This document shows positions 3,331-48,116 of a stretch of DNA of 64,000 bases, piece by piece. The translations under genes were made by a program, and so were the position numbers. Each line of letters opens with the position of its first letter. The stretch's first letter is position 1. The DNA comes from Homalodisca vitripennis (taxonomy: Eukaryota; Arthropoda; Insecta; Hemiptera; Cicadellidae): positions 67,770,501-67,834,500 of the forward strand of contig NC_060215.1 in NCBI RefSeq assembly GCF_021130785.1. The letters run 5' to 3'. Below the pieces are notes generated by a model. The model had not been told where the DNA came from and did not search any database. It saw nothing but the letters and a program-made list of their open reading frames with translations.

Positions 3331-3488
3331 AGTCTGCAAAATTTGTTTTTGTACCTAAAACGGTTTGTAGTTTAACTAGTTATTGAAAATGTTTCGCTCT
3401 GATGAATAGAAGGTTTAAACGAGTTTGTATTACGGCAAAGCTAGAAAACATGACGCTGATCCGCAATCAACAGTTTCTTAAGTAGGTA

Positions 3489-3841
3489 TTTCAAAACGTG
3501 ATGTGCATAACATGTTAAGGAAATACAAGTTTCGTCCTTACTATGTACAGCTTCACCAGGAAATGGACGAAGATGGTCCTTATAGAAGATTACAATTTTG
3601 TGAACAGTTGTTGGTGGAAATCAATAATGATAATAACTACATTTCACAAGTCTTTTGTAGTGATGAGGCGCCGTTTTCGTTACATTGAGTGATCAATCGA
3701 TATAAGAGCAATTATTGGTCTGATGTCAATCCACACTGCATAGTAGAAGCACAATCACATCATGAACAGAAAGTAAACGTATGGGCTAAAATTGTAGGAG
3801 ATTGTAGTTATGGAATCGTTTTTCATAGACACGAAATTTAA
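3489..3841 (+). pseudogene. Tc1/mariner-like (IS630-type) transposase relic
   Basis: A decayed transposase fragment. The frame reads ISKRDVHNMLRKYKF, then RRLQFCEQLL, then FCSDEAPFSLH. It meets an in-frame TGA at 3686-3688 and carries on in the same frame with VINRYKSNYWSDVNPH and QKVNVWAKIVGD, stopping at 3839. The order (RRLQFC block, SDEA block, VNR..YW..NPH block, VNVWAGI-like block) is that of the Tc1/mariner-like DDE transposases common in insects. Neither the N-terminal DNA-binding region nor TIRs are recognisable, so this is an internal fragment. Family assignment is from remembered motif patterns. Confidence 0.6.
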
Positions 3842-4032
3842 TGGGAAGTAAAATTTGGAAACGTTAAAATAGAATATTGTTTCACGCTAGATTGTAGTGA
3901 ACAATGTTTTAATGAATCCAACCGGTTATAAAAGATTTTTATTAATAGAATGTTTTTCAAATCCCCTTTGTTCCTTACTTTAAGCATTTTTTAACTGCCT
4001 TGGTTTTAAAAGTCTAATTTAACCTAACGTAA

Positions 4033-4058
4033 GGGGCCGTTCAAGTATTACGTAAGCA
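4033..4058 (+). repeat. left TIR of the 3.8-kb transposon
   Basis: Perfect inverted match, 26 of 26 bases, to 7841-7866. It starts GGGGCCGTTC and is preceded by TAA. Confidence 0.9.
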
Positions 4059-4339
4059 GATTTATTGCAATTATTTACCCCCCCATCCCCCTTGTCAGCA
4101 AAAGTAAGCAAAGCTCTTACCCCCTCCCCCCATGCTTACGTAAACATTTGTCAATTAATGTATTGTTTTTTTAATTTTATAACGTTATAATTATAATTTG
4201 AAAAATAAGAAAATAGATTTAGGATAGAGATTATATTTTACTGAAACGGTATTCAACATAGAGTAAAGGACAAAAATATTATATCTTACTAACATAACAA
4301 ACTTTATTTTAAATTTTTGGTACATATATTAAATTCAAA

Positions 4340-6472
4340 TTAACAGTCTTCATTCCATGAAACCCGAATCCATGATTCTAAGTTTTCGATGACATTGGAT
4401 TGCTTAGATTGCTGCTCAGTGTTGTGAGTCTGCTCGCTTTCATCCGATTTTGGAATGTCCACGTCATTCTCATCGAGCCATTCATGGTGCTCTAAATTTT
4501 GAATAATGCACATCAGTTCATTAGCACGACGAGCAGCGACTCTTACAGGTCTAACTTTCCTATCTGTGTGCGTGTTTACTTTCTTATGTCCCTTTTCGAT
4601 GTGCCGATTTAGTGGCTTGACGGAAGCATGATAAAGACCACACGTTTTGCATGTTCGACTTGATAGCCTCAATTGTACCGTCGGACAAAAATAATCGTAT
4701 GGCATTTGCAGGAAATCTTTGAGTGAAGCACTTAAGCGTAGAGCTAAATTGACTGGAAGATTAAGAAATTGCCCTCCTTCATCTAAAACCAAGTCATCAA
4801 CTGTTTGTTTTACTTTTACAGGTGGTGGAAGAAACCTGTTGTCTAGTAATCTAAATAGGCCACTTCTTGGACGACAGCATTCTGTATTTCTACATTTTAC
4901 AATTTGGAGCAAGTATTGGCTTTCACGCACATGTTCTGAATACCATTTAATGTCTGGAAATCAGGAAGATCTTGTTCACCTGCCCCAACATATTTTGCAT
5001 TAACATTATAGCCATCAATTTCCATTGAACTCTATACTTCAGCTAATACATTTCCTGCAAATTCGAAATTAGATCTTTCTAAATGTTCATCAATTGTAAC
5101 GCCACGTTCATCCAAATGAGACCCAAAATGGTCATGAGGCAATATTAAACCAGCCAGTTTCCGACTAAGAGGAGCCATTCTGCGCTCTACTCTGTTATAC
5201 GCACTTCTTCCGGGAGCATTGGTAGCTGAAAACAATGCATCGAAATCATGTCGCTTAAAGTGTTGTATATCAAACCCTATGACTTTTTGATAACGCGGAT
5301 TTTCATCTGGCCCTCCATCAACCGTCATGATTACCACTGGTTTTACTAGTCCATGGTCAGTTTTAGCTAATGGTCGAAACTCTTCAAGTTCGATAAGCGT
5401 CTCGAAATCCTGATCATGAGTATTAGCAGTAGATGAACTATGCTTTCCACTTCGAATAGCGATGTATGTTGGTCCAGAATATCCAACGGCTTGCGGTTGT
5501 CCTAGCATATTGGAAGTGATTTTGATACCAGCATAAACAGATGGTATTAATTTATGACGCTCAGCGATTACCCAATCGTGATCAGGCAATTTGATTCTAT
5601 ATTCCATGTGCATTAGAAGAGGTGCTTGCTTATTTGCCGCAGTTACGCCAATAGGGACTCGAGCTTTATCATCTTGAGATATGAAAAATACTTGATCTGG
5701 TCCTAGTATGGATGCTATGTTCTCTAAATAATGGATTGATGTTTCAGCGAACTTGCTATCTAAGTGGCTCTTGTGGTGATCAGTTTGAGCCCGAATGAGC
5801 TTAACAGGGACTGTCGATACATGTCTTCGTCCCTCTGCAGAATTAGATTTTCTGGGAATCAAACGAAGATATGTCCCACTGCGACTAATGTCAAATCCCA
5901 TTTTACGTAATTCTTGTGTGAGTTCATCAAGAGTTTTTACGCTGCGAATTGATTCCGTTCGTCTTCTATCATCTGCTGAACTCCCAAATAAAGCTATATC
6001 CGCGATTGTTTTCAATAGTAAAGGTTGATTGCTTTCAAGATTAGGACGTCCCACTGAATCCCTCAGAGATAGTCTTTTTTTCATTTCTGGATTTTCATGA
6101 CAAATATCTTCTAACTTTCTTTTCATACCATCCCTGTGTTTCTTCTGGGCAACTGCGTTTTGAACCTTCCTGTTTAAAGACTGTTTTGCTGTTTTTATTT
6201 CCTCGCGCAACTTAATGATCTGTTTATCAACTTCAGCACGGCTTGGCATAGTATCTCTGACAGAATACAAAGCATTCAGATTTTTTTTCGAGTAGAACAA
6301 TCTTATTTTTCATAGCGTCCTGAGAAGGTTTTGGTCTCTGTTTATCTGTATTTTTATTTATTTCGCATTGCTGTTGTGATTCATTACCGGTTTTTATTTT
6401 ATCTTCTTCCTGTTTTTTAATATTTGAAGCTGGCTGTGTGATTTGTGTTTTTTCTGCAGGTTTACAGGTTGC
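4340..6472 (-). pseudogene. transposase exon 2, probable DDE catalytic region (broken)
   Basis: A 3' splice site (TTTTTAG) precedes 6472. The frame opens ATCKPAEKTQITQ and continues through a Lys/Glu-rich linker to an A8 run at 6281-6288, where the frame shifts. The main block follows (6278-5035). Candidate acidic catalytic positions are in FISQDDKARVPIG and VVIMTVDGGPDENPRY, with a possible Glu in RSAYNRVERRM, then ILPHDHFGSHL. A TAG at 5032-5034 and a second frameshift near 4955-4975 interrupt the protein. The C-terminal block runs to 4340 with WYSEHVRESQYLLQIVKC and a Cys/His cluster (CKTCGLYHASVKPLNRHIEKGH). Such proteins are widespread as uncharacterised transposon ORFs. The three lesions suggest a recently inactivated copy, although the A8 shift could be a sequencing error. 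Confidence 0.6.
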
Positions 6473-6600
6473 CTAAAAATAAAAACTTTCTATGGGTTCT
6501 GCTAAAGATTCTATTATTAAGCTACATAAATACAACGTATGGCAATATATATGGTAAATACAAAACCCTATGGCTTTAAATCTAATATCATTAAACGAGC

Positions 6601-7080
6601 AATTCGTTCCGGTCACAAAATACAAGGTGTTATACTCTATTCAAGTAGGTATTTAAAAGAATGTAAACAATCTTGATATGTCTTTTTATTGAAATATGCA
6701 ATTATAAAATCAGATATTTGTAAAGGTGCGTACAGACATCGCGAGGCTTGCGCCGCGAATGGTTCGTCTCGCATACATCAACCTGAGGCATGCTACGGCA
6801 CATGTATACGTGCGAACCATTCGCGGCGCACGCCTCGCGATGTCTGTACGCACCTTTATGTACTTACAGAAAAGGAATTTTAATATTTGTTGAGTTTTTA
6901 AATGAATTACAACAGATTTTACACAGTTTACAATTTTAAACCACATATTTCAATAAAAAGACATATAAAGATTGTTTACATTCTGTTAAATACCTATTTG
7001 AATAGAGTATAGTTTTCTGTAGGTATATATATGTATAAAACTAACATCCTGTATTTTGTGACCAATTGACGGAATCAATT
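6601..7080. mobile_element. foldback element inside the transposase intron
   Basis: A large imperfect inverted repeat. The left arm (about 6601-6698) contains ACTCTATTCAAGTAGGTATT and TCTTTTTATTGAAATATG. The right arm (about 6944-7080) is its reverse complement with a ~35-bp insertion, ending GTATTTTGTGACC. The loop contains a second palindrome (6722-6857). The whole lies between the predicted donor (7226) and acceptor (6473), so it would be spliced out. Confidence 0.65.
6722..6857. mobile_element. 136-bp palindromic MITE
   Basis: Terminal inverted repeats of about 45 bp, AAAGGTGCGTACAGACATCG on the left and its complement ending GTCTGTACGCACCTTT on the right. Only about 45 bp of unique loop lies between them. 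It is much GC-richer than its surroundings. It has no coding capacity and is probably a foldback MITE. No clear target-site duplication is visible. Confidence 0.75.
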
Positions 7081-7226
7081 ATAAGAAATAAATCTATATA
7101 ATGAATATTACCTCTATACTTTAAGATAGGCCATAATATTTTCTAATTAGCAAAGAGAAACTTTTTGGCGATTTCTAATATTTCTAGTAGGTATTCATAG
7201 GTACCTAAAATGATTTCGTCACTCAC

Positions 7227-7424
7227 CTTAGAAAAAAAATGTAGTAGATTGGATTTATTCTTAGTCGCCGCTTGCAATTCTTCTTCGATTCTTTTAGATA
7301 CAATAATATCTAGTTCCTTTTCGGATTTTGCTTGTAATTTGTAATTTCGCCACACTTCGTTAACTAACTTTTGTACATTTTGTACTTCCGTACTTGTATG
7401 AGATTTTTTAAAACGTTCAAACAC
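7227..7424 (-). CDS. transposase exon 1
   Basis: N-terminal exon of the 3.8-kb element's transposase, 66 codons from the Met at 7424 (MFERFKKSHTSTEV). The frame runs to FFSK, where the minus strand reads CTAAG followed by GTGAGT, a consensus 5' splice site with GT at 7226-7225. Splicing here is in phase 0 and joins the exon at 6472 in an open frame. The sequence is charged and probably helical, with no motif I recognise. Without splicing the frame runs on into the intron and stops at 7143. The start Met is chosen because it is the first in the frame. Exon assignment rests on splice signals, phase and position inside the TIRs. Confidence 0.6.
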
Positions 7425-7597
7425 TTTTTGGTATAACTTGGATTTGTCTATTTGAAACGACGTCTTATTTAAACATTAAACTTTGGCTAATGGAATGAAT
7501 GGTAACACAAATGTTAACTTGCTTTACTATGCTTACAATACGTCTACTCGCTATAGCATCCAAACGAAACAATACACTGATAGAGGAAATTGAGACA

Positions 7598-7657
7598 AGT
7601 GAACAGCGCGCGGTAATTCCCTTACGCGAGTAGGGGAATTACCGCGCACTGTTCACT
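7598..7657. repeat. long hairpin near the right TIR
   Basis: GTGAACAG, GCGCGGTAATTCCC and GGGAATTACCGCGC, CTGTTCAC form a ~24-bp stem with two offset bases, closed by a ~12-nt loop (TTACGCGAGTAG). It lies ~190 bp inside the right end of the 3.8-kb transposon, upstream of the transposase start. It may be a subterminal transposase-binding structure or a small insertion. Confidence 0.7.
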
Positions 7658-7840
7658 AAACGTATGTATTACTTGCGGGAATCCCCGAAAATGCGTTTCG
7701 TTTTCAAGAAAAGACAATGTGTGGGTTGCCATTCGTGTAAAAAAGAAAATAACTACCGATGACGTAATCATCATCTAGACTCCCCTACCCCCCATGTCAT
7801 CCCAAATAAGCAAAGCAAAGACCCCCCCGCCCCCCCATAG

Positions 7841-7866
7841 TGCTTACGTAATACTTGAACGGCCCC
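7841..7866 (-). repeat. right TIR of the 3.8-kb transposon
   Basis: Perfect 26-base inverted partner of 4033-4058. It ends GAACGGCCCC and is followed by TAA. Confidence 0.9.
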
Positions 7867-7869
7867 TAA

Positions 7870-8688
7870 TACGGTAACCTATAATCTGCTAACTAATCGC
7901 GGTATTGTGCTTTGTTTAACTAAAATCTCTCCACACATTTTGGCTACCATTTTTTTATGGCCACCGGAAAAAGATTTTAAGCACTCCATTATTTTTGTCT
8001 TTTAGAGTTCTTTAAAATTAGCGGTCTCGATTAAAATATATCGATAGGGGTTGCAATTAAATATTTTTAAGTCACCCTCTGCAAACTTTACTTCCGGCGA
8101 AGCTGAAACTCTAGTATACGCCAAAACACTGTTCTTTATGCTAGAAAGATGTGCTAAAGTTGCTAAATAATTATTTTCAAAAATAAAATATTGAGTGAGA
8201 CGTGATACATTTTGGACACGCGGTATTATGAAAGGTGCGTAAGTGAATAGTATTAACAGTATAGAAAGAATAGCCATAAGCAAATCAAAATTCAGTTTTT
8301 ACCGTAAAACTATGGTTAACAAATAAAATACGTTATTAGATTTGATTATTAAAATCTGCTACATATATTATAAGCACTTGAGAACTAGGATGTGTGGTCA
8401 ACAGTATGTCAATAATATAGAGTACATACACCTTCCATTTGGAAAAACAGCATGATACAACGAGTGACACAACTGTTGTCGGTTAATCGTTAAAACAGTA
8501 GCCTATGTTTAGCCTAAAAGTTTCTGGTCTGGACAATGACAAATTTAACACACATTTACTTGAGTTGCTTTACAAAGTTTTACGTATGGACTCTGAATCA
8601 TGCACTGTTGTGTTGAATGGTTGGCATCTTGGGTTTTAGATCTTCACAATAAATACAGCTTGAAACAAATGTGCTACTGAGCTACTAT
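7870..8688. other. no recognised gene
   Basis: AT-rich sequence. A minus-strand frame at 8002-8283 (93 codons, hydrophobic N-terminus) is the only open stretch. It has no recognisable motif, promoter or splice support, so it is not called a gene. Confidence 0.5.
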
Positions 8689-9807
8689 ACAGAGTGTCCC
8701 AGAACTCTCTACCATTATTTTCAGGTATTATTCCTGTCTTAAAGACAAACTAAAATTTCATATTAAAACTTCCGAAAACTTAATAGTTACCCAAATAGCC
8801 GCCATTTTGATTTTTCACTTAAGTGTTTTTATTTTGATAACTGCTTGTTGTAATGAGTTATTAGTTAAATTAATAAACATTTTTATTTTATTATTTTTTA
8901 ATATAAAGAAACCTAAATTCTCCAACAGGTAAGGGTATTATGACCACATGTAGTGTTATTATCAGCTGATTAGAGCAGCCAAAATTAAAACAACTGATTG
9001 TTCTGGCTCACAAACATTAAAAGCACACATAAACACTAATAAGTCAGAGTGGTTATGGTTTTGTACTTGGTTTTTTTATCTCCCTAGCACATTAAGCACA
9101 TTATCTCCCTTATTTACAGATTTTTTAAACTTGATATCGTTGGATTTTTAATTAAAATGTCTAACTATAATGTAATGTAGCTATAGTAGGAAGGATTGAC
9201 TCAATTTGAATATTGAATTTTAGCTCCAGTTCACCCTCATTTTATTACAGCATCTGCAATCGTTGTGCACCTGATGAGACAATGAGACTGCCACTTCACC
9301 TATTTATAGGTGTATCTGATGTTAAAATGATGTAAAGGTTCGTTTTGAGCTTCTTACTCACCTACTTTCTTTGGATTTCTTCAGACGAACATGACTCCAG
9401 ATTCCAGGAGTCAAGTCTGAGACAGCGTCAGATTCTAGACGCTACAATAAAAGTAAGGTGAACTGGAGCTAAATTCAACATTCGAATTAAAATGTAATAA
9501 TTGAGACTTTTATAACATAAAATTTTTAAGATATTTAGGCTTTAAGTTTTTAGAAAATCGCTATTTTTTAAAGGAAAGCTTCTAAAAAATTTAATTTTTT
9601 TCTATAATTATGCTTTGAAGTTATAAGGCTATATGCCAAAATTCAATTCATTACAACCAGTCGTTCTCAAATTGAAAATACTTAAGTGAAAAATCAAAAT
9701 GACGGTTGTTCGGGCCATTATTAAGTTTTCGATAGTTTTAATATACAATTTTGGTTTTTCAGGAACAATATCTGAAAATAATGGTAGAGAGTTCTGTTAC
9801 ACTCCGT
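8689..9807. mobile_element. 1.1-kb non-autonomous foldback DNA transposon
   Basis: The ends are ~150-bp imperfect inverted repeats. The left arm begins ACAGAGTGTCCCAGAACTCT and contains CCATTATTTTCAG and TTGATTTTTCACTTAAGT. The right arm is its complement and ends AGAGTTCTGTTACACTCCGT. Identity is roughly 80-85 percent by eye. No transposase is encoded. Short plus-strand frames at 9699-9936 run out of the right arm and are not supported as genes. The target duplication is unclear (TA or AT). Confidence 0.7.
9205..9490. repeat. inner inverted repeat inside the 1.1-kb element
   Basis: TTTAGCTCCAGTTCACC at 9219-9235 is repeated inverted as GGTGAACTGGAGCTAAA at 9458-9474, with further arm similarity on both sides (ATTTTATTACAGC against GCTACAATAAAA). 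It is either a nested MITE or the core of a larger foldback. Confidence 0.65.
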
Positions 9808-39716: not shown

Positions 39717-39720
39717 CCTA

Positions 39721-40802
39721 TGATGTATTTCAGATTTGAAGTGATGTCAATTTGATGAGAGTGGCAGATTATAACGCCAATTTGCTATGTGTCACCCCCA
39801 CGTTGGTTGCGATAATTTGCTGAAAGTCAGTTCTTTAGAGTTATTGACTCACCATGTAGTTGTACGCCCCTTGTCACCAGTGGCACGTTGTTGTACCATG
39901 TTGCTCATCATGGTATCGGTCGCCATCTTGCCCAATGCTAGCTGTATTCCCTCGGTATTACTCAAAAATTATTAGATTTGAACGTCTCTGGTGTTATCAC
40001 CAGAGACAAGTCTGTGTGTATGTCAGGGTTCCAAAATATGTTAAGTAATGATTACATAATTTAACATCACTCCACACTTGTTATAAAAGGGATATTTAAA
40101 GAAAGTCAAACCAAGTGACCACGAGATTAATTTATTAAATGTCACACTCTCAACACATATTATAATTTCACTCACCTTGCAGTGCTTTGATAATTTTAAA
40201 AGTCTAAACAATATCCCATCCTTGATTAAATTTCAATATACTATACAACAGATAATTACTATCCCAGGAGAACTAACACAACCTCCTTGCTTCGAGTCTG
40301 GTGAAAGAAGAGCGAATCTCCGTATAAAACGACGGATACCGACTCAAAACAATATTCATCCCCTCTCTCGTTCAAATCAGCGTCTTCACGAATAAATTTA
40401 ATTTAATTCTTTTTTTATAATTGTCGAAATTTATTACGTTTACTATAATTAATCAATTTAAGTATTTCTATTTTCTTTTTATTATTTTTTCAAAGCTTTT
40501 TATTTAAATTTTTAGCAACATGTGCTTTATGACGTCATCAATATACAAGTCATTCATACCACAATTGGCTTTTCTGCGTAATTCTATTTAATGTTTTTGT
40601 AAAACACGAATTTTGGTTATGTTTACTTCATTTTAATTAATAAAATCTTTTCCCGAATAAAGTTCAATAAATTTCTTCGTTATTAAATAAATCTCAATTC
40701 CGACAACATGTGATTCACTGACGTCACAGTCTGCCGATTCATTGACGTCACAGTCTGCCAATTCCCCGCGAATATTCAAATGTCGTAATTTGACCTGTTA
40801 CA
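39721..40802 (-). repeat. 3' LTR
   Basis: 1082 bp, nearly identical to 47087-48112. The extra length is mainly a ~33-bp segment containing GTCTCTGGTG-TTAT-CACCAGAGAC, a perfect 10-bp hairpin, and a tandem copy of the TGACGTCACAGTCTGCC segment. Short plus-strand frames in both LTRs are spurious. Confidence 0.95.
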
Positions 40803-40813
40803 CAACCCCCAAA
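40803..40813 (-). promoter_or_regulatory. polypurine tract
   Basis: On the sense strand ATTTGGGGGTTG lies directly before the 3' LTR start (TGTAACAGG). It is short and G-rich, at the position expected for the plus-strand primer. It is interrupted by T residues, so it is a weak match. Confidence 0.4.
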
Positions 40814-41687
40814 TATAAATTGATCACATATTTGTTATCAATTTATATTTCTCCTCCAATTAAATCTTTTAAATTTTTGTCCAATTAAGCTATTATTTAA
40901 ATTTCTTGATAATTTTGTTTAAAAGTATTCATTTAAAAGAAAGTAAAATATCAAAGCAAAGCTTACAATCATATTACGCAAATTACAATGTATTAAATGT
41001 TTACACAAATTACAGTGTACATATAAATCAATTACACAAATTACAATTAATACAAATATCAATGAATATATAAATCAGCTACACAAATTACAATTAATAT
41101 TAAATGATTACACAAATTACAGTGTACATATAAATCAATTACACAAATTACAATTAATACAAATATCAATGAATATATAAATCAGCTACACCAATTACAA
41201 TTAATATTAAATGATTACACAAATTACAATATACATATAAATCAATACAATTAATACAAATATCAATGAATATATAAATCAGCTACACAAATTACAATTA
41301 ATATTAAATGATTACACAAATTACATATAAATCAATTACACAAATTACAATTAATACAAATATCAATGAATATATATAGATAAGAACAGTACTAAAGTTT
41401 TAAATACTTTTAAATTAAATACTTGTAACCTCTATATGTTTTGAATATAATGTTTAACGTGTCCATTTCACATAACATAATGTTCAATACAAGTTAACTC
41501 TATCAGATTATACACTCACAAGTTATAATAATACACAAATACCTTGTAAGAATCCTAAACATATTCTTACTGATAAACAATATTGTAATATCCTTATATT
41601 GTCATCTCCTACTGGAAACATATTACATATATTATCTACTATATTACATTATCCTTGTCACATCTTATTCTAAATATTTATACAACC
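40814..41687 (-). other. non-coding 3' region in place of the integrase core
   Basis: Stops occur in every sense frame directly after pol, and no integrase DDE or env-like sequence is recognisable. The region is AT-rich and its distal part is the 108-bp tandem repeat. Confidence 0.7.
40985..41370. repeat. ~108-bp tandem repeat inside the LTR element
   Basis: About three and a half copies of a unit with TACACAAATTACAATTAAT, CAAATATCAATGAATATATA and ACATATAAATCAATTACAC. Equivalent points lie near 41014, 41122 and 41230, with a shortened fourth copy near 41323. The unit itself contains repeated ACACAAATTACA motifs. It lies between the pol stop and the 3' LTR. Confidence 0.85.
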
Positions 41688-44600
41688 CTATACTAATCTA
41701 TTTACATCAAGTCTAGCACATTCTACATTCCCATGTTTACTCTTTTGGCACAATATACACTTTTTTAACTGTTCCTTTACACTTCTTTCCATATTCTTAA
41801 AAATACAATACTCTTTAAGTATATTAAATATTTTATGACCTCCTAAATGTCCATATTTTAAATGAGTAAAATTAACTAAATCCTTTTTAATACCTTCTGG
41901 AATACATACTTTCCATACATCACTATTTTCATCCTTTCTCTTAAAAATTATCCCTCTATACTCCATAAATATTTTATTTATTTTTCCATAATGAACTCCT
42001 TCGCTGTCATTTAAGATATTTTTTATATTTCTCAAATACTCATCCTGTTCTTGTTTTTTATCTAGATTCTTTAATATTTCCTTTATCTCACTATCTTTAA
42101 AACCTAAATCAATTTTGTTGTACAAAACCTTGATACTGTATTTTTCTACTGAATTTTGACTATCCTTCTGTGTAATCCTTGACAGTATGTCTGCTGGAAT
42201 GTTCTCTTTCCCTTTAACAAATTCTATTTCAAGATTAAACTCTTTTAATGCTAAAGCCCAGCTCAACAATCTACCATTTGTTAATTTACAACTTTTTAAG
42301 AATGTCAATGCTTTATGATCTGTTCTCACTATCACTCTGGGATGTCCTATTAAATATGATCTAAATTTTTTACAAGTTAATACTACAGCTAACAGTTCCT
42401 TTTCTGTGATCGTGTAAAATTTTTGCGCTTGTGTTAAAGCCTTGCTATAAAATGATATCACCTGTTCCTCATTGATTTCATCTAACTGATATAATATTCC
42501 ACTAATGTTAAGGTCACTTGCATCTGTATTTAAATAAAATGGTTTGTTAAAATCTGGATGTTTTAAAATGACTGCATTTAAAAATTCTGTTTTAATTTGT
42601 CCAAATGCCTTTTCTTCTTTTTCTGTCCACTTCCATTCTATTTTATTACTCAATAAATGATTTAACCGTCCTATTAAATTGCCATAATGTCTTTGAAACT
42701 TTGCATAATACAAACATAATCCATTAAACATTTGTAGTTCTTTTATGTTTGTAGGTCGTTTAAAATTCACTATCTGTTCAATTTTATTTTTATCCATTTT
42801 AATTCCTTCAGCTGAAATAATGTATCCTAAATAATTTATCTCTTTTCTTAAAAATTGTGATTTTTTTAATTTGACTGTTATTCCTCCTTCTTTTAATCTA
42901 CTTAAGACCTGTTCTACATGTTTGAAATGTTCTTCATATGTGTTTGAAGTGATTAATATATCATCCACATATGTAGTTACAAAGTCTGTCAAGTCATGAC
43001 CTAATACTTTGTTTAACCCTTTAATGAACAACGCAGTACTAACATTCAAACCATATGGTAGTCTTTTATATTGTAAATTCCTCCCTTCGAAGACAAACGC
43101 TACATATTTTCTGGACTCTTTACTTAATTGTGTTTGTAGAAATCCCTGTGATAAATCTAATGATGTCATGTATTTGACTCCTATAAACTTTTTCAATACA
43201 TCATCTATGTTTATTGGTGATTCCCTATCTGGTATTATGTGTTGATTCAAATTCCTGCTATCTAGACATATTCTTAATGACAGATCCTTTTTAACTACAC
43301 ACACCAATGGGTTAGAATATGGACTATCAGACTCCTCTATTGTGTCTCCTTTTAACATATTTTCTATTTCCTTTCTTACACCTTCCCTCTTTGAATAAGG
43401 TATTGGATAGGATCTTCCTACAAATGGCTTTTCATTTGTTATATTTAATTTGGCCTCATAATTCTTTATACAGCCTGGTTCATCTGAAAAAATATCTTTA
43501 TTTTTCATCAGTATACTTTTTAATTTATTTAAATCTTCATTTTCCTTTACTTCACAATGTTCTAATATTTCTAAAACCTGTTTATCCTTCTCATCATTAA
43601 CTTTGTCCTTCATATTTTCTGTATGTGTTTTACATATAAATTCTATGTTGTTCCAAGAATTTTTCAGCTCATCTTCACTTACTAATGTATTTATGTAATT
43701 GCATCTAATTAACTTTATACCATTGACTATATCCTCTGATTCACAGTTTGATTCAGTAAATTCAACATTTAATACTTCTTTATCTACCTCCAACTTTATC
43801 TTACCATGTTCAAAGTCAATTTTTGCATTGTGTTCTCTAAAGAAGTCACATCCTAGTATTATTCCCAAGTTCACTGCTTTGACTACTAGAAAATTTATTT
43901 GAAATAATTTATTCTCTATCATGACCTGTTTATCAATCTTTTTACTTCTAATACCTGTTACTCCTATTATACTTAAATTTGTTACCGGCAGCTCTAAAAT
44001 TTCAAGTACACTTCTTTCTTTTATCTCATTATAATACTTTTCTGACATTATTGTCGCCTGGCTTCCTGAATCTATTATCATGTGATACTCCTCTTTATTT
44101 ATTTTTCCAAGTATCTCAGGTAGTGCTTCTGCTACTGGTTTTATGGGAATTTTATTATAATTATCTTCATTGGTCAATTCATCAAAGATGTCATTTTCTG
44201 GTATAAAAGCTGTATTCACCCCTAGTCTTAGTCCAGATTTTTTCTTATCTGATCTTATCAGATTTCCAAGCTCATTTGCTAGAATTGTTAGACCCTCTTT
44301 ATTCAGATGTATTAAATCTTCACACCATTTTCCTTTATAAAATATTTCCTTTTCATATAATTTCACATTACAGTCTGTACTATCATAGTTATCATAATAC
44401 TTCTCTGCCACTTCTAAAACTGTAACTTTTTCATTATTTTCTTTACTTTTTATATGTTCATTTATTCTTTCAAGTTTATTTAAATGATATCTGTCATTCT
44501 CACCTAACTTTGGTATGGGTGGAATGGTTACCAAGATTATTTTATCAGCTTTCTCCAGTAAAACCTCTACTAGTTTGTCATAATCATTACAAATATTTTT

Positions 44601-44888
44601 TACTTCTTTATCCCTTAATAAATCATTTGTACCTATCATTACTATTAGCTGTTTTTCTAAATTATTTGCATGTTTTAGCTCTCTGGTCAACTGTTCAATT
44701 GTCTGACCTCCTATGCATGAGTTAATTCTCTTTCCTCCTTTCTCTCTATATTCACCTCTTAAATTCATTATTTTCTCCCCAAATCTCCTAAGTTGAGAAT
44801 CTCCTATCATTTGGTATCCCTCAAAATTAGGTTCCTTTTTCTCAATCGTTTCTTTCATTCTAGCCTGTCCTACCCATTTGTTTTCCAT
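41688..44888 (-). CDS. Pol: SGNH hydrolase - protease - RT - RNase H - integrase zinc finger
   Basis: 1066 codons from Met 44888, or a continuation of Gag by UGA readthrough. Residues 25-215 form an SGNH/GDSL hydrolase: GDS 29-31, Gly 60-61 (SCIGGQT), GTND 86-89 and DLIH 191-194 supply Ser31, Gly, Asn88 and Asp191/His194. The aspartic protease has DSG at 273-275 and IILGCDFF at 343-350. RT has LDLSQGF (577-583), LPYG (610-613) and YVDD (640-643). RNase H has NTDAS (788), TEKELLAVV (828), TDHKAL (856) and ADILSR (899). The integrase N-terminal HHCC motif is at ~1009-1047 (THLKYGH, CILCQ). The frame ends at 1066, 19 residues after the last Cys, so the DDE core and C-terminal domain are missing. 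All other motifs look intact. Confidence 0.9.
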   Translation of the reverse strand: MENKWVGQARMKETIEKKEPNFEGYQMIGDSQLRRFGEKIMNLRGEYREKGGKRINSCIGGQTIEQLTRELKHANNLEKQLIVMIGTNDLLRDKEVKNICNDYDKLVEVLLEKADKIILVTIPPIPKLGENDRYHLNKLERINEHIKSKENNEKVTVLEVAEKYYDNYDSTDCNVKLYEKEIFYKGKWCEDLIHLNKEGLTILANELGNLIRSDKKKSGLRLGVNTAFIPENDIFDELTNEDNYNKIPIKPVAEALPEILGKINKEEYHMIIDSGSQATIMSEKYYNEIKERSVLEILELPVTNLSIIGVTGIRSKKIDKQVMIENKLFQINFLVVKAVNLGIILGCDFFREHNAKIDFEHGKIKLEVDKEVLNVEFTESNCESEDIVNGIKLIRCNYINTLVSEDELKNSWNNIEFICKTHTENMKDKVNDEKDKQVLEILEHCEVKENEDLNKLKSILMKNKDIFSDEPGCIKNYEAKLNITNEKPFVGRSYPIPYSKREGVRKEIENMLKGDTIEESDSPYSNPLVCVVKKDLSLRICLDSRNLNQHIIPDRESPINIDDVLKKFIGVKYMTSLDLSQGFLQTQLSKESRKYVAFVFEGRNLQYKRLPYGLNVSTALFIKGLNKVLGHDLTDFVTTYVDDILITSNTYEEHFKHVEQVLSRLKEGGITVKLKKSQFLRKEINYLGYIISAEGIKMDKNKIEQIVNFKRPTNIKELQMFNGLCLYYAKFQRHYGNLIGRLNHLLSNKIEWKWTEKEEKAFGQIKTEFLNAVILKHPDFNKPFYLNTDASDLNISGILYQLDEINEEQVISFYSKALTQAQKFYTITEKELLAVVLTCKKFRSYLIGHPRVIVRTDHKALTFLKSCKLTNGRLLSWALALKEFNLEIEFVKGKENIPADILSRITQKDSQNSVEKYSIKVLYNKIDLGFKDSEIKEILKNLDKKQEQDEYLRNIKNILNDSEGVHYGKINKIFMEYRGIIFKRKDENSDVWKVCIPEGIKKDLVNFTHLKYGHLGGHKIFNILKEYCIFKNMERSVKEQLKKCILCQKSKHGNVECARLDVNRLV

Positions 44889-44897
44889 CCTGTTTTC

Positions 44898-44906
44898 CTC
44901 TAGTCA
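44898..44906 (-). promoter_or_regulatory. predicted readthrough stop between gag and pol
   Basis: The sense strand reads TGA CTA GAG. The gag stop and the pol frame are in the same register: 15 nt, five codons with no stop, lie between TGA and the pol Met. UGA followed by CUA(G) is a well-established leaky context in animal genes and RNA viruses. This would yield Gag plus a minority Gag-Pol without frameshifting. Confidence 0.7.
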
Positions 44907-46679
44907 TCTATTACCTCTCATACTTCCTCTTCCCCTTGTATATTCATATTGATCTCTCTGATGCCTCGTTTCGTTGTTTTCATACCTTTCTTTCTCCTTT
45001 CCATAATCATTTGTATCTCTACCCCTATTATTACTTTGTCTTCTCCTATCATTCTCAAACTCTAGTCTCTCCCTATTATATGTGTTCCTATTGTAGTATG
45101 AGCCTACTCTAGTCAAATTATTTCCTCTAATATTCCCTCTAACTTGTGTCCCTCTATATGGTGTATCTCTATGTCCTAAATTCTTGTATTGATTTACATT
45201 TTTATTGAGTGTTGTCTCATTTCTCATATCAAATGATCTGTCATAACTTCTATTCAGTATATTAAGTTGATTCAACAGGTTTTCTAGATCTTCTGATCTT
45301 TCAACATTTTGGGCTGCAGCAATTGCACTACTTATGGTTCTAGGAACGTGTTTGCTTATATATGCTAGGAATGTTCCCATGTCAATTCTAGTTTCCAAAT
45401 ACTGGCTTTTATTATAAAATTCCAATACATATGTTACTAGATTGTCAAATCCAACCCTGTATGTACCGTTACCCATTAGTTCTTTTTCAAATTTTTTCTG
45501 TTCCCCTATGGACCAATATTTCCCTTTAAAACTCCTATAAAATTGTTCAAAGTTTTTCCAATTATTTATATGCTGTCGCCCCCACTTTCCTGCTTCATTT
45601 TTCATATATTTTAAAATTATCAATACCTGGAAGTCCCATCCTTCTCCATTTTTCTCTATATATTTTTTACAAGCTTCCAAAAATTCCATAGGATGTACAT
45701 TATTTTTTATTGGATCAAATTCCAATAAGAATATTTCTGTGTTTGCTGGTTGGCTTATTCTCATGCCCACCATGCTTTGATTTCTCATCATATTTTCTAG
45801 TTGTGTTTGTTTGTTTTCTAATTTCCCTAGAGTTTCATCCAATCTCTTATTCAGGGATTTTTCTACCCTATTTCCCATGTCCTCTATTTCCTGTAAACTA
45901 CTGCCCGTTACTGACTTGTATTCTACATCCCTCCTAGCCTTACCATTTTCTGTATCCTGGTCAAGTTCTAAGTTAGCTCTGTCCCTATCTACCTTACCAT
46001 TTAATTCATCTAATCTTGTTTTAAATCTCTTATTTATCTTTTCTAATCTTTGATCTATTTTCTTTTTATCATCCTCAATGTGTACAAACCTTTTCTCAAT
46101 TTCCCTCATATCTTCTTCTCTTTTATCTTTTAATTTCTTTATCTCCGTTGTAACCTCTCCTCTAACCTGACTTTTAAGTTTATTCCTCTCACCTTTGTTT
46201 TTCTCAGCTTGTTCGTTTATTTCAAGTCTGACCCCCTCCTCCAAGTTCTTTAAGTCTTTGTTTATCTCTACTCTCATAACCTCCTTTGTCTCTACTATTT
46301 TATTGTTTAACTCACCTCTCATCTGTTCCATGTCTGGTTTTAACTGCTCATTACTTCTTTGAATTTCCTTTTTTAGTTCCTCATTATTCTGATCTATTTT
46401 ATAATTCAGATCCCTTAATCCCTCATTATTTTTCTTTAACTCCTCATTATTTTTATTCAACTCCTCATTATTTTTATCCATCTTTTCATTCAAGTCCTTC
46501 CTTAATTCCTCATTATTTTTCTTTAACTCCTCATTATTTTTATCCATCTTTTCATTCAGACTATTCATCATAGTCCTCATGAATGTAATAAGACCTTCAT
46601 CCCTATTAACTCCTACTGGACTACTGACTCTGCTAACCTCATTCTCTAATGAATTTCTGTCATCTGTTGTCGACACCAT
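44904..46679 (-). CDS. Gag polyprotein of the LTR element
   Basis: 591 codons from Met 46679 to UGA at 44906-44904. Residues ~35-300 form a long charged coiled coil, starting with repeated NNEELKK/NNEELRK heptads (residues ~40-90) that are visibly duplicated. A capsid-like helical region follows (~305-470), with FLLEFDPIKNNVHPMEFLEA and WGRQHINNWKNFEQFYRSFK, resembling the Ty3/gypsy retrotransposon-gag domain. The C-terminus (~500-591) is Arg/Asn/Tyr-rich and ends in RG repeats (RGRGSMRGNR). No CCHC zinc knuckle is present, so RNA binding probably relies on the basic RG tail. The sense strand is strongly A-rich, as in many retroelements. It is in frame with pol through the UGA. Confidence 0.85.
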   Translation of the reverse strand: MVSTTDDRNSLENEVSRVSSPVGVNRDEGLITFMRTMMNSLNEKMDKNNEELKKNNEELRKDLNEKMDKNNEELNKNNEELKKNNEGLRDLNYKIDQNNEELKKEIQRSNEQLKPDMEQMRGELNNKIVETKEVMRVEINKDLKNLEEGVRLEINEQAEKNKGERNKLKSQVRGEVTTEIKKLKDKREEDMREIEKRFVHIEDDKKKIDQRLEKINKRFKTRLDELNGKVDRDRANLELDQDTENGKARRDVEYKSVTGSSLQEIEDMGNRVEKSLNKRLDETLGKLENKQTQLENMMRNQSMVGMRISQPANTEIFLLEFDPIKNNVHPMEFLEACKKYIEKNGEGWDFQVLIILKYMKNEAGKWGRQHINNWKNFEQFYRSFKGKYWSIGEQKKFEKELMGNGTYRVGFDNLVTYVLEFYNKSQYLETRIDMGTFLAYISKHVPRTISSAIAAAQNVERSEDLENLLNQLNILNRSYDRSFDMRNETTLNKNVNQYKNLGHRDTPYRGTQVRGNIRGNNLTRVGSYYNRNTYNRERLEFENDRRRQSNNRGRDTNDYGKEKERYENNETRHQRDQYEYTRGRGSMRGNR

Positions 46680-46800
46680 CCTGTTCTACTGTATTAGGGG
46701 ATGACCAACCTAAAAACCCTGTATCTCCTGAGCTATGAAGATCTATTTCTATTGGTCTAAATATTGGTGCGGGCCCTTCATTATTTTGTTCGCCTTTCAT
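46660..46800 (-). CDS. 46-codon leader ORF overlapping gag
   Basis: On the sense strand an ATG at 46800 opens MKGEQNNEGPAPIFRPIEID and ends with TGA at 46662-46660, overlapping the first 20 nt of gag in another frame. Composition is protein-like rather than random AT. It could be an upstream regulatory ORF, or the original Gag N-terminus displaced by a one-base shift near 46680, because its frame runs directly into the gag start region. No homology is recognised. Confidence 0.35.
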   Translation of the reverse strand: MKGEQNNEGPAPIFRPIEIDLHSSGDTGFLGWSSPNTVEQDGVDNR

Positions 46801-47053
46801 TTTGTAGCCTATGTTTAATTTGAAAATTTATATTATTAATTTAGGCCTTATTTTTGTTTTATTAGCCTACCAGGAAAATTTTACCAATTTATATTATAAC
46901 TAGGTTGTTCAAAGTTATCAAACTTATAGACTAACAATAATTTGTTATACTTCTTCTAGACACACACCTGAAAATACAATTTACAATTATATAAAGACAG
47001 TGATTTTCACTTAGTCTAAAATATGCTACCACTAACCTACTTAAATTAGTTGT

Positions 47054-47083
47054 GGAAGTTCGAGCCCTCCAGTTGGTGCGCCA
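47054..47083 (-). promoter_or_regulatory. primer-binding site, tRNA-like beyond 18 nt
   Basis: Three bases after the 5' LTR the sense strand reads TGGCGCACCAACTGGAGGGC and continues TCGAACTTCC. The complement ends in GCGCCA and contains GTTCGAGCC, the conserved T-loop sequence of tRNAs. Complementarity therefore appears to span the acceptor and T arm, about 30 nt, resembling a tRNA-Lys-type 3' end. The exact tRNA needs alignment. Confidence 0.6.
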
Positions 47084-47410
47084 TTTTGATGTATTTCAGA
47101 TTTGAAGTGATGTCAATTTGATGAGAGTGGCAGATTATAACGCCAATTTGCTATGTGTCACCCCCACGTTGGTTGCGATAATTTGCTGAAAGTCAGTTCT
47201 TTAGAGTTATTGACTCACCATGTAGTTGTACGCCCCTTGTCACCAGTGGCACGTTGTTGTACCATGTTGCTCATCATGGTATCGGTTGCCATCTTGCCCA
47301 ATGCTAGCTGTATTCCCTCGGTAATACTCAAAAATTATTAGATCTGTGTGTATGTCAGGGTTCCAAAATATGTTAAGTAATGATTAACATAATTTAACAT
47401 CATTCCACAC

Positions 47411-47424
47411 TTTTTATAAAAGGG
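47411..47424 (-). promoter_or_regulatory. TATA box of the 5' LTR
   Basis: The sense strand reads CCCTTTTATAAAAA, downstream of both CRE octamers and ~330 bp before the LTR end. Transcription would start ~30 bp further on, near 47385, giving an R-U5 of about 300 nt. The 3' LTR equivalent has one substitution (TTATAACAAG). Confidence 0.5.
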
Positions 47425-47863
47425 ATATTTAGAAAGTCAAACCAAGTGACCACGAGATTAATTTATTAAATGTCACACACTCTCAACACATATTATAATT
47501 TCACTCACCTTGCAGTGCTTTGATAATTTTAAAAGTCTAAACAATATCCCATCCTTGATTAAATTTCAATATACTATACAACAGATCATTACTATCCCAG
47601 GAGAACTAACACAACCTCCTTGCTTCGAGTCTGGTGAAAGAAGAGCGAATCTCCGTATAAAACGACGGATACCGACTCAAAACAATATTCATCCCCTCTC
47701 TCGTTCAAATCAGCGTCTTCACGAATAAATTTAATTTAATTCTTTTTTTTATAATTGTCGAAATTTATTACGTTTACTATAATTAATCAATTTAAGTATT
47801 TCTATTTTCTTTTTATTATTTTTTCAAAGCTTTTTATTTAAATTTTTAGCAACATGTGCTTTA

Positions 47864-47871
47864 TGACGTCA
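47864..47871. promoter_or_regulatory. CRE/ATF-type octamer in the 5' LTR U3 (distal)
   Basis: A second perfect TGACGTCA, conserved in the 3' LTR at 40530-40537. It lies upstream of the LTR TATA box on the sense strand. Confidence 0.5.
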
Positions 47872-48052
47872 TTAATATACAAGTCATTCATACCACAATT
47901 GGCTTTTCTGCGTAATTCTATTTAATGTTTTTGTAAAACACGAATTTTGGTTATGTTTACTTCATTTTAATTAATCAAATCTTTTCCCGAATAAAGTTCA
48001 ATAAATTTCTTCGTTATTAAATAAATCTCAATTCCGACAACATGTGATTCAC

Positions 48053-48060
48053 TGACGTCA
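48053..48060. promoter_or_regulatory. CRE/ATF-type octamer in the 5' LTR U3 (proximal)
   Basis: A perfect palindromic TGACGTCA about 55 bp from the sense start of the LTR. The 3' LTR has two tandem copies here (40719-40726 and 40743-40750). TGACGTCA is the canonical CREB/ATF recognition sequence. Function here is inferred. Confidence 0.5.
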
Positions 48061-48116
48061 CAGTCTGCCAATTCCCCGCGAATATTCAAATGTCGTAATT
48101 TGACCTGTTACACCTA

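Follow-up and report, generated by a model that had tools for sequence, protein, structure and literature searches.

The 64,000-nt window analyzed here (Homalodisca vitripennis, contig NC_060215.1, positions 67,770,501 to 67,834,500, from a 2.3-Gb genome) carries a Ty3/gypsy long terminal repeat (LTR) retrotransposon whose Pol polyprotein opens with an SGNH hydrolase domain. This domain almost certainly belongs to the OSK branch of SGNH hydrolases, the family of the insect protein Oskar. We consider it probable that a catalytically competent OSK-branch enzyme is the first Pol domain in gypsy elements of this hemipteran genome.

Blocks I, II, III, and V of the SGNH superfamily are present in the domain with their Ser, Gly, Asn, and Asp/His residues (S36, G66, N93, D196, and H199 in the numbering of P0001), and all five catalytic residues are retained in both full-length element families. 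The domain is probably an active hydrolase. Counted from the Met at 44888, the GDS, SCIGG, GTND, and DLIH motifs lie at residues 29–31, 57–61, 86–89, and 191–194, where a sequence-only reading of the window had placed them when it proposed an intact SGNH hydrolase between Gag and protease. That location also holds, with the refinement that the domain starts just past an in-frame UGA. The Pfam OSK family (PF17182) was matched at E 2e-22 to 4e-22 by whole Pol and by the isolated domain, compared with 1e-10 to 6e-12 for Lipase_GDSL_2 and 4e-8 to 2e-9 for Lipase_GDSL. The OSK profile scores of the window family (family 1, 79 bits) and of a second family (family 2, 80 bits) exceed both the curated cut-off of 27 bits and the scores of related families. 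The AlphaFold2 model of the domain has an SGNH fold (predicted local distance difference test score 82), and its closest structure in the PDB is the OSK domain of Oskar (5a4a/5cd9), which shares the fold across 180–198 residues. The hydrolase assignment of the sequence-only reading is therefore upheld by a significant fold-family match, whereas its comparison with generic GDSL enzymes or the esterases of long interspersed nuclear elements (LINEs) gives way to OSK. The architecture is not that of Oskar, which has an N-terminal LOTUS and a C-terminal OSK domain with a non-conserved triad, absent in the fly: the element domain has an intact triad and lies within Pol, and neither Gag nor Pol gave an OST-HTH (LOTUS) match at E up to 1.

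Kinship with OSK is argued from profiles, from folds, and from how the matches run in both directions. A profile of ten sequences (three element rows, five named hemipteran proteins, P0003, and P0010; Oskar excluded) scored Oskar at 57.3 bits and the next SGNH protein at 39.5. The OSK family was matched in none of 14 control genomes. Searches for relatives yielded one locus in viral contigs and five in genome contigs; the window domain matched one plasmid and, weakly, one phage, and plasmid searches gave three weak matches with fly OSK and one match with family 2. The Pfam scan covered 8 of the 12 bacterial finds (an IMG/VR contig, Argonema, Acidimicrobiales, Clostridia, Ilyobacter, Rhodobacter, Vibrio, and Falsirhodobacter) and omitted the phage match, a Bosea match, and two loci, L053 and L054, that nearly duplicate L051. 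These eight relatives scored 63–101 with GDSL_2 and from no match to 30.5 with OSK, and only Ilyobacter passed the OSK cut-off. Two bacterial-type relatives used as PDB queries returned 55 and 50 sequences within an E limit of 10, with Oskar absent from both sets. Bacterial GDSL lipases (e.g., Ilyobacter WP_013388739.1) thus have the superfamily and blocks in common with the element domain but favor the other profile. The candidates of a generic GDSL lipase or a direct bacterial capture are weakened by these reciprocal profile and PDB results, and an origin from a LINE esterase by its weaker match to the ten-sequence profile (28.7 bits, as against 57.3 for Oskar).

The fusion is not restricted to the window copy, and its domain is under purifying selection, as the sequence-only reading had supposed. 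In a hand-picked sample of eight disjoint pairs of open copies, the ratio of nonsynonymous to synonymous polymorphism (pN/pS) of the domain was 0.33 in family 1 (five pairs, Fisher p 1.4e-4) and 0.34 in family 2 (three pairs, p 0.023). Over 12 within-family pairs the ratio varied between 0.12 and 0.66, and it was 0.31 for the saturated pair of family 1 and family 2. A mere passenger domain is unlikely given these ratios and the retention of the domain between families that are 34% identical in it. When the genome was searched with fly OSK (138 candidates scored), family-2 and family-1 gypsy copies ranked first (best E 1.8e-4), followed by a set of roughly 206-aa frames whose E values were near 0.05 or weaker. 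These frames are stand-alone open reading frames (ORFs) of a third gypsy family (two loci read), whose Pol is 26–28% identical to those of families 1 and 2; in the longer locus the ORF sits directly upstream of gag, and the other locus (L064) is an internally deleted copy. Oskar was the sole PDB match of the third-family domain with E under 0.01 (6.5e-4; next 0.17). In three Pol lineages, OSK has been inherited together with the remainder of Pol, a spread that the sequence-only reading, correct as to the gypsy fusion itself, had missed. One database protein named as ATP-dependent RNA helicase ddx25 (P0004) apparently comes from a gene model in which gypsy Gag, OSK, and protease have been joined to an unrelated start.

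Several observations weigh against the OSK assignment and its reading as a maintained enzyme. In single-sequence comparisons the window domain scores higher with the Ilyobacter plasmid protein (52–53 bits) than with fly OSK (35 bits), and fly OSK itself gives 44 bits with family 2 and, in a search with different settings, a not much lower 37 bits (E 0.4) with a Rhodobacter plasmid enzyme. The third-family domain, although above the OSK cut-off, scores 34 bits with OSK and 38 with GDSL_2. No other folded domain of Pol changes as fast as OSK, which shows 34% identity compared with 46% for protease and 60% for reverse transcriptase. The training data of AlphaFold2 are the PDB, which includes Oskar, and the OSK assignment was made without a view of the sequences that compose the Pfam OSK seed. 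Finally, the comparison includes a single true Oskar sequence, with a very long branch, and a grouping of fly OSK with bacteria against all other insect rows was not rejected (p 0.303); that grouping is compatible with fly OSK branching off first among the insect rows.

Proteins with a C-terminal OSK domain are also encoded by host genes of the leafhoppers Graphocephala, Cuerna, and Macrosteles, the planthopper Laodelphax, and one JGI source (P0006, P0009, P0011, and P0012, and P0010 for the JGI source). Some hemipteran proteins already bear the UniRef label "OSK domain-containing". All five host proteins have a low-complexity N-terminus and keep GDS, Gly, GTND, and D-x-x-H; no LOTUS match was found in them (scans at E up to 0.1 for Graphocephala and up to 10 for the other four). 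They carry the same domain with an intact triad, 35–40% identical to the window domain (129–142 bits, compared with 117 and 109 bits for the other element families), and differ from element Pol in having no retroelement domain listed. In the genome of the window, the host gene has introns, its OSK part being split over at least four exons on one contig, and the nine OST-HTH matches found genome-wide include none on C3 or C4291, the contigs of the best exons. Loss of oskar in Hemiptera, where it is almost completely absent, has been reported, and the OSK triad is described as not conserved (Blondel and others 2021, PMC8662646). Diverged copies resembling one host-OSK exon, about 56–71% identical, cluster at G000:C8:64.16–64.68 Mb and on C1800, an apparent clustered expansion. 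In a 756-aa protein of Diaphorina citri (P0008), OSK is N-terminal and block V (DLIHLN) follows some 500 residues later at the C-terminus, which points either to a misannotated gene or to a long insertion.

Two trees were built, both unrooted, with one copy per element family and the Diaphorina row cut before block V. The earlier tree (a shorter fly OSK piece, nine bacterial-type rows, family 3 left out) separated insect and element rows from bacterial-type rows at 85/86. In the later tree (a longer fly OSK piece, family 3 added, Falsirhodobacter left out), 12 rows of insect, element, or unknown source were set apart at 98/97 from 8 rows of bacterial type. The bacterial sample is thin and partly picked by likeness to the elements, and eukaryotic SGNH proteins such as PAF-acetylhydrolase were left out. 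Provided that the root lies on the bacterial side, element OSK, the LOTUS-less hemipteran genes, and Oskar would be more closely related by descent to each other than to the sampled bacterial hydrolases. Within the insect set, only the leafhopper and planthopper genes were resolved in both trees. A single element clade was neither recovered nor rejected in the earlier tree (approximately unbiased test, p 0.353), and none of the five arrangements tested in the later one was rejected (p 0.19 to 0.392), including fly OSK with the hosts (p 0.265) and with the elements (p 0.19); its best topology places fly OSK beside family 3 at 66/53.

The direction of transfer was weighed on this basis. A gypsy ancestor may have taken up the spliced mRNA of a host OSK gene, either the LOTUS-less hemipteran gene or its forerunner, so that the domain would be an enzyme stolen from the host, and the donor gene a cousin of Oskar; we rate this reading a little short of an even chance. 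It accords with the catalytically intact genes of leafhoppers and planthopper, with the division of the OSK part over several exons in this genome, as is typical of long-established host genes, and with their scores somewhat above those of other element families; the sparse resolution of the insect set and the element clade that was neither recovered nor rejected count against it. The reverse direction, in which OSK spread as a retroelement domain and was later domesticated, by fusion or recruitment, to yield both Oskar and the OSK genes of Hemiptera, is a real possibility, if one we lean away from. OSK-like domains occur in two distant gypsy lineages at two different positions, and gypsy copies lead the genome search with fly OSK, although split exons also reduce the scores of host genes in that search. 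The triad missing from fly Oskar (PMC8662646) is present in the element copies, which are therefore not easily derived from an Oskar already without it; yet the host genes, rich in introns, have it intact as well, and the placement of fly OSK beside family 3 is weak, other placements not being rejected. An LTR-retrotransposon source for Oskar's own OSK domain, that is, an ancient gypsy hydrolase that was domesticated, fused to LOTUS, and turned into an RNA binder with loss of the triad, is likewise conceivable but on the doubtful side. Separate captures of GDSL domains from related bacteria by the elements and by Oskar, their likeness being that of the donors, seem distinctly unlikely. The placement of OSK within bacterial GDSL lipases (Blondel 2020, PMC7250577) and the Ilyobacter plasmid match speak for such captures; the 98/97 split and the single bacterial relative above the OSK cut-off speak against them, and the 2020 search relied on TrEMBL of June 2016, in which the only non-Oskar eukaryotic matches were fungal CAZ3 proteins (PMC7250577).

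Gag and Pol share one frame with a single UGA between them. UGA CUAG is present in 28 of 30 fetched family-1 copies, including decayed ones, and is replaced by CGA in the other two, whereas all six family-2 copies read have UGA CAA CCA. Both UGA-CUA and stop-CARYYA are known readthrough contexts, and the UGA is very probably read through. A fresh start of Pol at a Met just past the stop is improbable: such a Met is the sixth codon after the stop in the window family, but in all six family-2 copies the first Met is at residue 41, beyond the catalytic Ser at 29. Ribosomes would pass the UGA at a low rate to give a protein with the order Gag, OSK, protease, reverse transcriptase, RNase H, and integrase; OSK would therefore enter the particle in Pol amounts and would then be released by the protease. 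The released domain could be an esterase whose substrates are lipids or acylated proteins and so aid particle formation or movement on germ-line membranes, where the element must act. An esterase in membrane-linked assembly or germ-line transport is our best guess for its function, although such a membrane or germ-line role is held only tentatively. The main alternative, an RNA-binding or germ-granule tether like OSK in Oskar rather than a working enzyme, appears unlikely. Fly OSK reportedly binds RNA without the triad (PMC8662646) and is basic (22 K+R, 14 D+E), as are the leafhopper and planthopper genes (24–26 and 17–21) and P0007 (25 and 17); the five catalytic residues, in contrast, are intact in both full-length element families and in the host genes, and the domain is slightly acidic in the window (32 and 36) and neutral in family 2 (24 and 23).

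SGNH domains are known from other retroelements. The LINE esterase, of all retroelement SGNH proteins the one studied in most depth, is represented by ZfL2-1 (PDB 4c1b), an active acetylesterase that binds lipids and serves as a guide to function (PMC3905857). It lies in the coiled-coil ORF1 of non-LTR elements, whereas the window domain belongs to an LTR element and shares its frame with a protease and an integrase zinc domain. The Vesta LTR elements of bdelloid rotifers encode a GDSL/SGNH ORF3 with retained catalytic residues (PMC5408684); by description, rather than by sequence, this separate third ORF is set apart from a domain fused ahead of the protease. The word oskar is absent from that paper. 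A 2015 review set LINE SGNH-like domains and a role in ribonucleoprotein assembly beside Oskar (PMC4754038), Oskar was found to have no significant match to insect SGNH proteins and weak bacterial ones (Lynch and others 2011, PMC3084197), and a 2026 PNAS paper, which removed transposable elements of metazoans as confounders, repeats the bacterial origin (PMC13389597). The literature searches listed no account of a retrotransposon with an OSK domain; the database label exists for hemipteran proteins, but the retrotransposon connection did not come up in these searches.

The element has LTRs, Gag, and a Pol with OSK-type SGNH, aspartic protease, reverse transcriptase, RNase H, and integrase zinc domains in this order (Table 1). 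The integrase core was not found in the window copy, the only one of three family-1 copies compared that is missing it; the full Ty3/gypsy order is seen in family 2. The insertion is probably fairly young, because its LTRs, aligned in three blocks, are 98.4–100% identical and it is bounded by a target duplication of 4 bp. Gag has coiled-coil-like repeats and an RG-rich C-terminus, and no zinc-knuckle family is among its listed Pfam matches; 21-bp repeats at window 46371–46569 code for NNEELKK-type heptads, a repeat-expanded coiled-coil-like stretch. Tandem repeats of 107 bp lie between Pol and the 3' LTR (window 40991–41401 and 41688) and occur in two other copies. Elsewhere in the window, two adjacent open frames of 425 and 206 aa (4340–6309, minus strand) possibly represent a DNA transposon or repeat gene; they matched no Pfam family above its cut-off.

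Table 1. Coordinates of the gypsy element, its OSK domain, and related loci (window positions unless a locus is named).
Feature	Position	Strand	Basis or remark
Ty3/gypsy LTR element, whole insertion	39721..48112	-	LTR ends and flanks read directly, paired LTRs
Target duplication CCTA (4 bp)	39717-39720 and 48113-48116		flanks read directly
5' LTR	47087..48112	-	TG...CA ends; match to 3' LTR
Putative primer binding site just inside 5' LTR	47066..47083	-	position alone
Gag open frame	44907..46685	-	ORF list, Pfam scan
Probable readthrough stop between Gag and Pol, in-frame UGA then CUAG	44904..44906	-	copy comparison
Pol, 1071 aa, stop-to-stop open frame	41691..44903	-	ORF list, Pfam scan
OSK-type SGNH hydrolase domain, Pol residues 25-218	44250..44831	-	
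Catalytic Ser36 codon, block I GDS	44796..44798	-	sequence read
Gly66 codon, block II SCIGG	44706..44708	-	sequence read
Asn93 codon, block III GTND	44625..44627	-	sequence read
Asp196 to His199 codons, block V DLIH	44307..44318	-	sequence read
G-rich polypurine tract just before 3' LTR	about 40803-40816	-	
3' LTR	39721..40802	-	paired LTRs, ends read
Third family, longer locus L065 (G000:C4:8596500-8606400)	3467-8927	-	206-aa stand-alone OSK-like SGNH ORF
Host OSK gene locus L060	G000:C4291:8000-17999		

Textbooks present Oskar as an example of a new essential gene, and its OSK domain has been explained as a bacterial gift (PMC7250577, PMC13389597). The catalytically intact OSK domains that insect retrotransposons and LOTUS-less hemipteran genes carry are candidate missing relatives; they make the origin testable and suggest an ancestral activity. 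An OSK hydrolase heading a Pol that is probably expressed by readthrough would also be an addition to the known modules of retroelements. If the retroelement origin is true, the organizer of the insect germ plasm would be in part a retroelement protein, and any transfer from bacteria would have been made to the element and not to the insect.
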